Below, piece after piece: positions 3,823 through 8,717 of a DNA stretch of 58,656 nucleotides; the stretch's first letter is position 1, and the number at the start of each line of letters is the position of its first letter. The stretch is taken from assembly GCA_009392515.1 (NCBI GenBank), contig VFGE01000033.1, positions 1-58,656 of the forward strand. Reading direction: 5' to 3'. Source of the stretch: SAR202 cluster bacterium. Its GTDB lineage: Bacteria; Chloroflexota; Dehalococcoidia; Lucifugimonadales; UBA6952. The notes beneath the pieces were generated by a model. That model was not told the origin of the DNA, searched no databases, and worked only from the letters and a program-made list of their open reading frames with translations. The position numbers were made by a program, and so were the translations under genes.

Positions 3823-4917
3823 TTATTTACCTTCTATCTTTGTCGACATCAAATATTTTTCATCTTGATAGATATGTATTGGAATATTTTTTTTAATACT
3901 GAGCGAAACATTATTAGAAACTTCAAGAATATTCTCTTGTGAAATATATTCTATAACCTTCCCTGAAGGTAATTTAATTATGTAGGAATAATGAGATCCC
4001 TTAAATTCTATGGACTCAACGATACAAGATCCTTTTTCTTGTGATAGATCAATATTATTTCCTCGTATTAGGATTTGTAAATTTTGCTTATCAGTAATTA
4101 TTGCTTCTTTGACTTTAATTTCTCCGATTTCAGTATGTAATGTTTGAGGATCAGTGATAGTCACATCAATAAATGAAGCAGGATCCATAAACTCTGCAAC
4201 AAATTTTGTTAAAGGCTGATTATATATATATTCAGGTGTATCAATTTGTTCAATTTTGCCATTATTCATGATTGCAATTCTATCGCCAAGAAACATGGCT
4301 TCTTCTTTGTCATGAGTGACAAAAATAGTTGTTGCTTCAGCTTGTTTAACAATTTCTTTTATTTCTTCTCTAATCTTAATTCGTAAAGCAGCATCCAGAT
4401 TAGATAAAGGTTCATCAAATAGCATAACAGTAGGATTGGGGACTAATGCACGGGCAAGAGCAGTTCTTTGTTGTTCTCCACCAGAAAGCTCATTTGGCAT
4501 TCTTTTTAATAAGTTTTCAAGACCAACTAAACTAATTATCTTTTCAACTCGTTCAGTGGATTTGTTTGATTTGTCTAACCCAAATTCAATATTTTTTTCA
4601 ACATTCAAGTGAGGAAATAAAGCATAATCTTGAAAAACCATTCCCACTTTTCTATTTTCAGGTTTTACAAATTTACCTGGCATTGAAACTAATTGCCCAC
4701 CAACCGATAAAGTACCGTTTGATGGTTCTTCAAAACCAGCTATCAATCGTAATAAGGTGGTTTTTCCACACCCACTAGGACCTAGTAAAACTAAAATCTC
4801 ACCATGATTAACAGTAAGAGTTACATTTTTTACAGCGTCTGTTGTTTTTGAATACGTTTTGCCTATTCCAATACATCTAATTACTGGAAAGTTTTTATTG
4901 TTTATTTGATTTAGCAT
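3823..4917 (-). CDS. fbpC: Iron(III) ABC transporter ATP-binding protein
   Basis: This is the ATPase of a binding-protein-dependent importer, 364 residues. Walker A GPSGCGKTT lies at about 46-54, the ABC signature LSGGEQQ at 144-150, Walker B VMLFDEP near 164-170 and the H-loop FVTHDKEEA near 200. The C-terminal 120 residues form a TOBE-like regulatory region, as in FbpC/AfuC. It is the last gene of the fbpA-fbpB-fbpC order and follows the permease stop by 13 bases. Assignment to iron(III) rests on the company of FbpA-type and DtxR-type neighbours; on sequence alone it could also be a spermidine- or sulfate-class ATPase. Confidence 0.9.
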   Translation of the reverse strand: MLNQINNKNFPVIRCIGIGKTYSKTTDAVKNVTLTVNHGEILVLLGPSGCGKTTLLRLIAGFEEPSNGTLSVGGQLVSMPGKFVKPENRKVGMVFQDYALFPHLNVEKNIEFGLDKSNKSTERVEKIISLVGLENLLKRMPNELSGGEQQRTALARALVPNPTVMLFDEPLSNLDAALRIKIREEIKEIVKQAEATTIFVTHDKEEAMFLGDRIAIMNNGKIEQIDTPEYIYNQPLTKFVAEFMDPASFIDVTITDPQTLHTEIGEIKVKEAIITDKQNLQILIRGNNIDLSQEKGSCIVESIEFKGSHYSYIIKLPSGKVIEYISQENILEVSNNVSLSIKKNIPIHIYQDEKYLMSTKIEGK

Positions 4918-4930
4918 ATCTTTTATTTAG

Positions 4931-6490
4931 TTATTCTTGGATACCTTTATCAAACATTATAAACATTGGTAATCCAGTAAATAACAATAGTATACCAGAA
5001 TATACAGCAGCCATACCAAATCCAGCTTCTGTTGCATGTGTCCATATAGAAGTAGCTAGTGTATTGAAGCTAAGTGGAGCCAGAATAAGTGTAGCTGGTA
5101 ATTCTTTCATTATAAGAATAAATACTAAAATAAAAGCACCTGTGATTCCTGGAGCCATAGAAGGGAAATTAATTTTTTGCCATATTTTGAAATTTGATGC
5201 TCCTAAACTTTTAGCCGATTCTTCTAGTTTAGGGTTAATCTGAGAAACTACAGGTTTTATAATTCCAATCGCAACTGGAATAAATAATATAATGTATCCT
5301 ATTGCTAATAAAATCATGGTTTGATATATGGGCATAGCAAAATTTATTCCGAAATAAACAACAGCTAATGCTACTACAATACCTGGCAAAACAAACCCAA
5401 TATAGGATATTTTTTCTATTGTTTTACTAAAGGTATTTTTATGCTTTGCAATTAATAAAGCTATAGGTACTGCAAGTAATACTGTAGCGAAAGTACCTAT
5501 AAATGAAGCATATATAGAGTTTGTTATTACTTCAATTTTGAAAAAATCATCATAGTTGATAGTAAAACTGTAACCCCAATTAATTAATACCGATATTGGT
5601 AATATTACACTTATAAAGATTAGAAGGCTGATTAGTAATACTATAACCCATTTGAATTTACCGAGGTCAATCAGTTTTGTGTTTTTTGATACTGAAGCTG
5701 TAGATCTATATAGATTGGAGTTTGCAGATTCAGGTTTATAAAACCAAATTGTTAATAGTCCAATCAATATTAGTATAGTGGAAGTACTTGCTGCTGCTGC
5801 TCTTTGTATAGTTTGATATTGATTATAAATAACATAACTAAAGGATTTATATTGTAATAGAGATACTGCCCCGAAATCACTTACTACATAGAGAGTTACT
5901 AATATAGCTCCTACTATTATTGATGGTTTTAGTATAGGAATTATGACTCGTATATATGTATCCCAAAAAGATTTACCTAAGCTGTATGAAGCTTCTTCGT
6001 AGCTATAATCTAATTTTGTTAATGATGAAGTGACACTAATAAATATATATGGATAGCTAAGTAATGTTAAACATAGAAAGGCTCCCCAATATCCATATAA
6101 ATCAGGTATTTTTTCGATACCAATTATTTGTAAAGTGTCATATAAAACTCCCTTTGGACCAAAAAGGATAATAAACAAAAATCCATATATGTAACTTGGG
6201 AACACTAATGGTAGGCATAATAAAACTCTAAATATATTTTTCAAAGGTAAGTTTGATCGAATTGTGAGAATTGCTAATGGAACTGAGATGCATATAGAAG
6301 CTAAAGTTACTGTAACAGCGAGTAATATTGTATTCCAAGCAAGACGTAGAGTTTTAGTTTCAAGTAAATATTCGTAAAAATCATTTGGGTTTGATAATAA
6401 ATTTATTGCGACATAGCACAACGGTACTGCTACTAATAGCAGTACCATTGTGGCAATAATTTGCAATATTGATTGAGATGATTTAAACAT
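4931..6490 (-). CDS. fbpB: Iron(III) ABC transporter permease, fused two-domain
   Basis: This 519-residue inner-membrane permease is made of two homologous halves, giving about 12 membrane segments, as in FbpB/SfuB. Each half carries an EAA loop that contacts the ATPase: YEEASYSLGKSFWDTY near residues 170-185 and LEESAKSLGASNFKIW near 425-440. It forms one unit with the upstream lipoprotein gene and the downstream ATPase gene. The ATG at 6488-6490 has no clear Shine-Dalgarno sequence. A stem-loop stands in the 188-base gap before it, so expression relative to the binding protein is probably reduced. Confidence 0.9.
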   Translation of the reverse strand: MFKSSQSILQIIATMVLLLVAVPLCYVAINLLSNPNDFYEYLLETKTLRLAWNTILLAVTVTLASICISVPLAILTIRSNLPLKNIFRVLLCLPLVFPSYIYGFLFIILFGPKGVLYDTLQIIGIEKIPDLYGYWGAFLCLTLLSYPYIFISVTSSLTKLDYSYEEASYSLGKSFWDTYIRVIIPILKPSIIVGAILVTLYVVSDFGAVSLLQYKSFSYVIYNQYQTIQRAAAASTSTILILIGLLTIWFYKPESANSNLYRSTASVSKNTKLIDLGKFKWVIVLLISLLIFISVILPISVLINWGYSFTINYDDFFKIEVITNSIYASFIGTFATVLLAVPIALLIAKHKNTFSKTIEKISYIGFVLPGIVVALAVVYFGINFAMPIYQTMILLAIGYIILFIPVAIGIIKPVVSQINPKLEESAKSLGASNFKIWQKINFPSMAPGITGAFILVFILIMKELPATLILAPLSFNTLATSIWTHATEAGFGMAAVYSGILLLFTGLPMFIMFDKGIQE

Positions 6491-6678: not shown

Positions 6679-7803
6679 TTATTCTAACACTCCTGCATCT
6701 TTTAGCATTTGAGCACTGCCCTCAATATCACTTAATGAAGCAAGTGATATCGCTGGTTTATTTATATCATCAAAAGGTGTGATCATTGGATGTTTCTTTA
6801 CGCCACTAACTAAAGGATATTCTCTAGTTGAATTTGCGAAGTAGCTTTGAGCAACTTTAGAAGTCATAAACTCAATGAACTTTTCTGCATTTTCAGTATT
6901 TGCAGCTGATTTAAGTATTCCAGCAGCTGAAACCATGACCATAGAACCTGGCCCTCCACCTGTTGGATGATAGTTTCTAGCTTTGAATGCATCACCTGCA
7001 GCTTTATCTAGAGTGAATTTGTAGAGGTAGTAGTGGTTAACAAACCCTACATCGATTTCACCTTTATCAGCAGCTTCAACTTGAGGTGTGTTTTTTGGAT
7101 ATACTTTTGCACCATTGTCTCGGATACATTCAATCCATTTTTTGGTTTCAGCGTCACCCCATTCGGCACGCATGGCTGTAATCATAGTCTGGAATGAAGA
7201 ATTACTTGGAGCCCAACCTATTCTTCCGTTCCATTTAGAATCACAGAATCCTTGCATAGTAGCTGGTAGATCTGATTCGTTAACAGTTGCTGTATTATAT
7301 ACAACGACTCTTGCACGACCAGTGATACCTGTCCAAAGCCCTTGAGGTGATTTTGCCCATGTAGGAACAACATCAACCATGGTTTTTTTACCATCATCGT
7401 CAGTGACTTCTTTCATTAAGATATGATCGTGTAACGGTTGAAGCATATTTTCTACTGAGCCTATAGCACCAGGATCTTGAGCATAGAAAATATCAGCAGG
7501 AGTTTTATCTCCTTCTTCCATTAGTAGTGCTGCCATTGGTGCAGATGATCCGTATTTAACTTCTACGTTAATACCTGTGGAATCTTCAAACTGCTCAATT
7601 ATTGGTCCAACTAAAGATTCTTTTCTACCTGAATATATAACAAGGTTTCCAGGATCCTTTTCGACCTCTTTAATAACTTCAACTTCCTTAATAACTTCTT
7701 TTTCAACCTCAACTATTACTTCTTCTGCCTCGGCAGTACATGCAACTACTGCAAGTAACCCTATAAGAAGGCCTAATCGAGATATACTTTTAAAAATTTC
7801 CAT
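6679..7803 (-). CDS. fbpA: Iron(III)-binding lipoprotein, FbpA type
   Basis: This is the extracellular substrate-binding component of the iron importer, 374 residues. A lipoprotein signal ends in LAVVAC with the lipidated Cys at 22. It is followed by a charged Val-Glu-Lys-Ile linker (about residues 28-50), a hallmark of Chloroflexota solute-binding lipoproteins. The mature fold begins NLVIYSGRKE (52-61). A His-Tyr-Tyr triplet at 257-259 matches the tandem tyrosines that bind iron in FbpA proteins. Translation starts after an AAAGGGG site. It is transcribed from the palindrome-overlapped promoter at 7883-7910. Iron as the ligand is inferred from these residues and the DtxR-type neighbour. Confidence 0.9.
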   Translation of the reverse strand: MEIFKSISRLGLLIGLLAVVACTAEAEEVIVEVEKEVIKEVEVIKEVEKDPGNLVIYSGRKESLVGPIIEQFEDSTGINVEVKYGSSAPMAALLMEEGDKTPADIFYAQDPGAIGSVENMLQPLHDHILMKEVTDDDGKKTMVDVVPTWAKSPQGLWTGITGRARVVVYNTATVNESDLPATMQGFCDSKWNGRIGWAPSNSSFQTMITAMRAEWGDAETKKWIECIRDNGAKVYPKNTPQVEAADKGEIDVGFVNHYYLYKFTLDKAAGDAFKARNYHPTGGGPGSMVMVSAAGILKSAANTENAEKFIEFMTSKVAQSYFANSTREYPLVSGVKKHPMITPFDDINKPAISLASLSDIEGSAQMLKDAGVLE

Positions 7804-7845: not shown

Positions 7846-7861
7846 ATTAGTACGTACTAAT
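7846..7861. promoter_or_regulatory. Operator 1, perfect 16-bp palindrome
   Basis: ATTAGTACGTACTAAT is a perfect 16-bp palindrome between the dtxR-like gene and fbpA. It has the same arms (ATTAGTA/TACTAAT) as the second palindrome 34 bases away. It lies in the expected 5' leader of fbpA, downstream of the transcription start. Isolated half-sites, such as TTAGTAA at about 7823-7829 and TTACTAA at 7862-7868, flank it. The likely ligand is the DtxR-family protein encoded next door. Confidence 0.72.
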
Positions 7862-7879
7862 TTACTAACAAAGCTGAAA

Positions 7880-7895
7880 ATTAGTATATACTAAT
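7880..7895. promoter_or_regulatory. Operator 2, perfect 16-bp palindrome over the -10 box
   Basis: ATTAGTATATACTAAT is a second perfect palindrome and differs from operator 1 only in its two central bases. It contains the whole -10 box of the fbpA promoter, so a bound repressor would exclude RNA polymerase. The centre-to-centre distance to operator 1 is 34 bases, a little over three helical turns, which would put two repressor dimers on roughly the same face of the DNA. Confidence 0.75.
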
Positions 7896-7910
7896 AAATG
7901 AATATGTCAA
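7883..7910 (-). promoter_or_regulatory. Promoter of the fbpA-fbpB-fbpC operon
   Basis: On the minus strand a perfect -35 box TTGACA (7905-7910) is followed after 16 bases by TATACT (7883-7888), one base from the -10 consensus. The -10 box is inside operator 2. The expected leader of fbpA is about 70 bases and contains operator 1. Confidence 0.75.
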
Positions 7911-7928: not shown

Positions 7929-8693
7929 TTAGTTTATTATCGAGCTGACAAAAATGTTGTGGGCAACGGTGTTACTGAAAGTAATATCTTGATCGTTAGA
8001 ACGAATTGTTGTAACTCCTCGAGTTTTGGAGATATCAACAATTGTAATTTTTGCACCAGGAACTAAACCATTACGAACTAGATATACCAGAAGATCATTA
8101 TCCTCAGGGGGGATTGATATAATACTATATTCATTATCAACCTGTGTATTTAGAAGGCGTAAGGTTAGTGTTGGTTTATGTTTATTACTACCAGGTATTT
8201 TTTGTCCAAATGCTCCGGTAGTGGGATGGTCAAGTAATTCTATTAATCGTTTTTCGACTTTTGGTGAAATTGCATGTTCTAATAAATGAGCTTCCTCGTA
8301 GGCATGTTCTAAATCTAATCCTAAAATATCCACAACCAATCTTTCTGCTAACCTATGTCTTCGTACGATAAATTCAGCAGATTGTTTTCCCGCACTTGAT
8401 AATTCTAAGTCTTTTGGATTTGGGGTAAGTAATCCTTCTTTAATTAGACGCTTTATCATGGCACTTACTGATGGCAAGGAAGATCCAAGGTTTTCTGATA
8501 CAGGGGCATTTTTTAGATATTCAGCAAGCTCAGTCAATGAAATTTTATTTTCATTATTTTCTTGTAGATAATAAATAGAAAGAAGGTAATTTTCAGCCAC
8601 CATTGAGAGCCTTTTTTGGCTGTGGTAGGGAGAATTTGCTAATATCTTATTTGCTCCAGTATTATTGGATTCTTTATTACTAGTTTTACTCAT
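7929..8693 (-). CDS. DtxR/IdeR-family metal-dependent repressor
   Basis: This 254-residue protein would bind DNA when loaded with iron or manganese. A winged-helix region (about residues 28-95) is followed by the DtxR metal-binding and dimerisation helices, seen in RRHRLAERLVVDILGL and EAHLLEHAISPKVEKRL. A FeoA/SH3-like C-terminal domain covers about 165-254. I choose the ATG at 8691-8693 because a GAGGG site precedes it; the ATG four codons upstream has none. The gene lies directly upstream of fbpA on the same strand, and twin palindromes stand between the two, so it is very probably the regulator of the fbp operon. Iron versus manganese specificity is not resolved. Confidence 0.9.
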   Translation of the reverse strand: MSKTSNKESNNTGANKILANSPYHSQKRLSMVAENYLLSIYYLQENNENKISLTELAEYLKNAPVSENLGSSLPSVSAMIKRLIKEGLLTPNPKDLELSSAGKQSAEFIVRRHRLAERLVVDILGLDLEHAYEEAHLLEHAISPKVEKRLIELLDHPTTGAFGQKIPGSNKHKPTLTLRLLNTQVDNEYSIISIPPEDNDLLVYLVRNGLVPGAKITIVDISKTRGVTTIRSNDQDITFSNTVAHNIFVSSIIN

Positions 8694-8717
8694 ATTTACC
8701 CTCATTTAGATATATGA

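Follow-up and report, generated by a model that had tools for sequence, protein, structure and literature searches.

Paired palindromes at a SAR202 fbpA promoter as probable operators of the neighbouring DtxR-family regulator

IdeR and DtxR, known from Saccharopolyspora, Mycobacterium and Corynebacterium, are three-domain metalloregulators that act at iron-uptake promoters through a 19-bp operator (TTAGGTTAGSCTAACCTAA). The IdeR operator consists of two interleaved TTAG-N6-CTAA units, each of which takes one dimer, and IdeR also binds a single unit alone, for which the one-dimer consensus TTAGGNNNNCCTAA has been proposed (PMC8464063). This 14-bp half-site, described at the nuo promoter of S. 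erythraea, has two quintets separated by a 4-bp spacer (PMC8464063). In the CCTAA quintet the first C is changeable, provided that a C at position 1 or 2 is combined with a T at position 3 (PMC8464063). A 2023 review asked whether IdeR-type one-dimer half-sites exist in other species, and what role they play (PMC10317159). The Mn or Mn/Fe relatives TroR and MntR are likewise DtxR-family repressors encoded with a metal ABC transporter. MntR has Asp or Asn at the position of IdeR Met10 and Glu at that of Cys102 (PMC10317159), and the TroR system has a dyad near or over the transporter promoter (PMC2628430).

The locus described here lies in a 58,656-nucleotide stretch of DNA from a SAR202 cluster bacterium, which was analysed whole and is called the window below. 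In the dark ocean SAR202 belongs to the more common bacterial groups, and nearly all of its members are uncultured. Our literature search found no paper naming both SAR202 and DtxR and none containing the palindrome reported here. We have found a 14-letter site on iron-uptake promoters across this mostly uncultured marine group (SAR202/Dehalococcoidia), where the literature searched describes no such switch. Judged from sequence, it is probably a real iron operator and a variant of the IdeR/DtxR kind. In this group the usual operator of the main iron importer seems to be a half-site lying across the -10 box, which bears on the question raised in the 2023 review (PMC10317159). The motif and regulator pair may also serve as a means of reading iron limitation from SAR202 genomes and metatranscriptomes.

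The fbp locus and its promoter palindromes

On the minus strand the gene order is purT (9931-8750), dtxR, the palindromes, fbpA, fbpB and fbpC (Table 1). A substrate-binding protein with the tyrosine pair, followed by a permease and an ATPase gene, identifies the operon as an FbpABC-type ferric transporter. An earlier note on this DNA had described two perfect palindromes 34 bp apart, one on the -10 box of a near-consensus promoter and the other in the leader, with a DtxR-family gene just upstream of fbpA. Each of these points was confirmed: both palindromes are perfect and lie 34 bp apart centre to centre, the promoter TTGACA-16-TATACT agrees with the consensus at 11 of 12 positions and has its TATACT inside O1, and the upstream gene encodes DtxR-family Pfam domains scoring over cut-off. 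O2 lies in the leader, at about +15 to +30 relative to the predicted transcription start.

Table 1. Features of the fbpA promoter region and neighbouring genes (window coordinates)
Feature	Position	Strand	Basis
Operator O1 ATTAGTATATACTAAT (predicted)	7880-7895	.	Read directly; one of two perfect genome-wide matches; identical to class-level de novo consensus
Operator O2 ATTAGTACGTACTAAT (predicted)	7846-7861	.	Read directly; same 34-bp spacing kept in G001
-35 box TTGACA, fbpA promoter	7905-7910	-	Placement relative to palindrome recurs across the order, mostly with a 17-bp spacer (16 here)
-10 box TATACT, within O1	7883-7888	-	Read directly; promoter match; order-wide -35 offset
DtxR-family regulator, 258 aa (Fe_dep_repress, Fe_dep_repr_C, FeoA/SH3-like)	7929-8705	-	Pfam, all over cut-off
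HTH insertion region, about residues 62-76	8478-8522	-	9 residues longer than IdeR; alignments and AF2
fbpA, ferric-iron-binding lipoprotein	6679-7803	-	Matches solved ferric-binding proteins in the PDB (best E 3e-68), with the YY pair kept
fbpB, ABC permease with two BPD_transp_1 domains	4931-6490	-	Gene calls and Pfam
fbpC, ABC ATPase	3823-4917	-	Gene calls and Pfam

Perfect copies of TTAGTANNTACTAA (TTAGTA-N2-TACTAA) occur at just two sites in the 1.55 Mb genome, O1 and O2. With up to three mismatches the motif was counted 16 times in the window against a shuffled expectation of 10.9; this excess is slight, and what counts as evidence is therefore that two copies are perfect, lie 34 bp from each other and are conserved. 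In a genome of the same genus (G001), whose DtxR is 89% identical, both palindromes, the -35 box and the spacing are unchanged. Near-matches were not more frequent than matches to a reversed-pattern control, either in the window's own genome (14 vs 33) or across 18 genomes (about 39 vs 57). Thus only location and conservation carry signal, and lone one-mismatch sites are weak evidence. A pattern search for a larger regulon in the window's AT-rich genome likewise gave one-mismatch matches no more frequent than the control. One of these (TTAGTATATACTAG, G000:C37:32585-32598) lies between divergent genes for an AIR-synthase-domain (SelD-like) protein and a thioredoxin/YyaL-like protein, and may be due to chance in an AT-rich genome.

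The earlier note had also proposed a distinct operator type for this lineage. The arm does depart from the known one, with TTAGT/ACTAA in place of the TTAGG/CCTAA of IdeR and DtxR, but the 14-bp geometry is that of the IdeR one-dimer unit, and the full 19-bp DtxR site was not the apt comparison. Since the one-dimer spacing is retained, the operator is better seen as a variant of this geometry, with a substituted fifth base (G to T) and an alternating RYRY core, than as something unrelated. In the window the quintet is ACTAA, in which the second C and the T are retained. Unlike the 19-bp operator, with its two overlapping dimers, these are predicted to be single-dimer palindromes. They share with the half-site of S. 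erythraea the two quintets, the 4-bp spacer and the expectation of one dimer, but differ from it in apparently being the normal operator of the main iron transporter class-wide, in lying within the -10 region and in often being doubled.

Among side observations at this locus, FbpA has a charged, repetitive linker (EVIVEVEKEVIKEVEVIKEVEK) at about residues 27-50, after the lipoprotein signal, and similar repeats are present in related FbpA proteins (e.g. L094). In G053, fbpA occurs in two tandem copies (L063 and G053:C12:44887-47209).

Occurrence of the site in the order and class

Homologues of dtxR are present in 48 of the 59 genomes of the order, and homologues of fbpA in 49. Palindrome-constrained EM was applied to 28 fbpA upstream regions from 28 genomes, the window's own (G000) being excluded, and gave the consensus TWAGTATATACTWA; 23 of the 28 regions scored at least 9 nats. 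The log-likelihood was 157 against 15-23 for shuffled regions, and in a class-level run, which used 27 fbpA regions of genomes outside the order and returned ATTAGTATATACTAAT, exactly O1, it was 96 against 39-43, the shuffles keeping base composition but not dinucleotide content. Held-out fbpA regions gave p = 0.00 in G043, G034, G006, G012, G011 and G032, and p = 0.03 in G047 and G051. The scan upstream of orthologous fbp operons, which the earlier note had set as a check, thus found the palindrome conserved, in two independent de novo runs; the idea of an operator confined to this genus gives way to one that is order-wide and largely class-wide. Many of the site-bearing genomes have a G+C content of 60-67%, so the palindrome cannot be put down to AT-rich sequence.

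The promoter context is conserved as well. Of 36 sites, 17 have the hexamer TTGACA at an offset of precisely -16 relative to the 16-mer when at least 4 of 6 matches are required (11 at 5 of 6 or better), while other offsets hold 0-5 (binomial 6e-13). This fixed offset identifies the TATACT of the palindrome as the -10 box, with a 17-bp spacer (16 in the window). Secondary sites group at a distance of 22-23 bp (11 cases), and the 34-bp distance is found only in the window's genus. Intermediates with TTAGG arms occur in the class (ATTAGGTATCCCTAAT in G233 and GTTAGGGCATACTAAC in G228), where some members keep one or two such arms. A clear site is absent at the fbpA homologue of the dtxR-bearing genomes G023, G021, G025, G005 and G004; most of these homologues are 38-50% identical and are possibly paralogues.

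In family f29 (L299, L301, L276 and L267; G153, G279, G296 and G305), a shifted palindrome near TTCGTRYRYACGAA replaces TTAGT...ACTAA upstream of fbpA, as in ATTCGTATATTCGAAT and ATTCGTGCACACGAAA. Its EM log-likelihood (31 vs 19-28 for shuffled regions) is suggestive only, and the element could be either a drifted operator or the site of another regulator.

The regulator protein

The regulator matches PF01325 (2.2e-9; N-terminal winged HTH), PF02742 (1.6e-21; dimerisation/metal domain) and PF04023 (2.4e-10; C-terminal FeoA/SH3-like domain), all over cut-off as expected of a DtxR-family protein, and so has the three-domain architecture of IdeR and DtxR. These are also its nearest solved relatives by sequence and by fold (Foldseek to IdeR, TM 0.75-0.86; AF2 model pLDDT 88.7). 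Of the ancillary-site ligands, His79 and Glu83 have aligned counterparts in His117 and Glu121; at the position of His98 the window protein has Tyr, where most of its relatives have His. The primary metal site differs, in that the sulfur ligands Met10 and Cys102 are replaced by Asn39 and His140, neither of which varies among 44 relatives. Given these replacements, the effector could be something other than iron. The pair does not match that of MntR either: Asn39 fits, His140 does not.

In the DNA-binding domain the base-contacting Gln43 of IdeR is Ala. An IdeR Q43A variant still binds its own site normally (PMC8464063), so this change need not account for the TTAGT arm. Proteins of the order also carry an HTH insertion relative to IdeR, which follows helix 2, precedes the recognition helix (77-89, AF2) and is conserved order-wide as LPxxExLGTSLPSV (dtxR proteins L005-L049). 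The idea that it gives rise to the TTAGT arm was considered and rejected: in other orders, G085, G103 and G240 pair an insertion-free DtxR with the same operator, and the insertion is therefore not required for operator specificity.

We tentatively propose, at rather less than even confidence, that DtxR proteins with the Asn/His metal site, carrying the HTH-turn insertion in the order, form a subfamily that is the iron sensor of SAR202/Dehalococcoidia. Its single dimers would read their palindromes mainly through the flexible alternating RYRY core, which doubles as the -10 box, and a second dimer about two helical turns away would provide cooperativity.

Proposed mechanism and rival readings

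Beyond fbpA, exact or one-mismatch sites occur just upstream of genes for imelysin (G006, G031), FTR1 (G036), a siderophore-interacting protein (G007) and a Peripla_BP_2 (FhuD-like) protein (G001; truncated frame, Pfam score just below cut-off). Less exact sites precede imelysin in G015 and G004, and a one-mismatch site precedes ferritin in a single case (G020). The site is absent upstream of imelysin in G040 and of FTR1 in G021 and G025. Imelysin is found in 5 and FTR1 in 4 of the 59 genomes of the order, so both offer few extra tests of the regulon. All identifiable targets are iron genes, which points to iron as the sensed metal.

We consider it highly likely, from the sequence comparisons, that both palindromes serve as operators for the adjacent DtxR-family metalloregulator for Fe-dependent repression of fbpABC, with one dimer per palindrome; that is, they are very probably landing sites of an iron-sensing repressor encoded next door. 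With enough metal in the cytosol (most likely Fe2+), the regulator would be metal-loaded and would bind as one dimer to each TTAG-N6-CTAA palindrome. The -10 box lies inside the palindrome, so occupancy would block polymerase: the dimer at O1 would cover the box and exclude RNA polymerase, and the dimer at O2, just inside the transcribed region, would reinforce the block. Under iron scarcity the dimers would leave, fbpABC would be transcribed and Fe3+ would be imported. In related genomes the same site would place imelysin, FTR1, siderophore-reductase and FhuD-like genes in one iron-uptake regulon. The comparisons show where the sites lie, that they are conserved and embedded in promoters, and that they go with dtxR and with iron genes; from these patterns we infer that the regulator binds, that its effect is repression, that each site takes a single dimer and that iron is the co-repressor.

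The palindromes might instead be Fur-family operators, leaving the adjacent DtxR to control something else, e.g. manganese. A Fur-family gene was detected in 54 of the 59 genomes, that of the window among them, and fbp-type genes are commonly under Fur control. Nevertheless, the site tracks dtxR and not fur: it is kept in four dtxR genomes without detected Fur (G001, G019, G027 and G053), and is absent in three fbpA genomes that have Fur and lack dtxR (G026, G029 and G058). The association of dtxR with the site gave a Fisher value of 0.003 at score 12, or 0.011 when the fragmented G056 (420 contigs; a strong site, dtxR not found) is counted as lacking dtxR, and depends on three dtxR-lacking genomes. 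In addition, dtxR is repeatedly beside fbp. Among 80 named dtxR loci, sites scoring at least 13 occur in 11 of the 13 with fbp genes against 4 of the 67 without, one of the four being L235, on a contig of G013, where FTR1 is divergent from dtxR. The order is variously dtxR-fbpABC, fbpABC-dtxR or divergent; rearrangements have thus left the linkage intact. General autoregulation of dtxR was also considered and rejected, since the site is nearly always missing where dtxR is not close to iron genes. The palindrome has the IdeR one-dimer spacing and is, we presume, unlike a Fur box. Control by Fur is accordingly improbable.

A DtxR-bound operator whose sensed metal is Mn2+, through an MntR-like sensor that took over iron genes, or both Fe and Mn, is unlikely but weightier. 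Asn in place of Met10 is shared with some MntR proteins (PMC10317159), the regulator matches MntR-type NCBIfam models, although below cut-off, and a response to both Mn and Fe is known from relatives, TroR among them (PMC2628430). Set against this are the iron-gene targets, among which no Mn transporter was seen, and the lack, at the Cys102 position, of the glutamate that MntR has there; from TroR and MntR the system also differs in operator sequence and in its ferric FbpA-type transporter. Readings without a protein operator are fainter still. That the palindromes are RNA hairpins or another leader element would suit O2, which lies in the predicted leader, but O1 is upstream of the predicted start and over the -10 box, across the order it is the distance from the main site to the -35 box, not to the start codon, that stays constant, and neither a terminator-like structure nor an Rfam family was found in the fbpA leader; we regard this as very improbable. 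Chance palindromes in AT-rich DNA are the least credible reading: near-matches are common genome-wide, but recurrence at fbpA throughout the order and class, G+C-rich genomes included, and the de novo motifs contradict it. Repression by the neighbouring DtxR-family regulator remains our preferred reading.

Some further loci were recorded in passing. An exact site in G027 (L088, G027:C39:703-716) lies 51 bases upstream of a Fic-family-like start, with a CoA-transferase-like gene on its other side and no obvious iron link. In G013 (L248/L252, G013:C97:4036-5661), one 993-aa open frame with two FTR1 matches is divergent from dtxR, and the intergenic stretch between them contains several weak operator-like sites.
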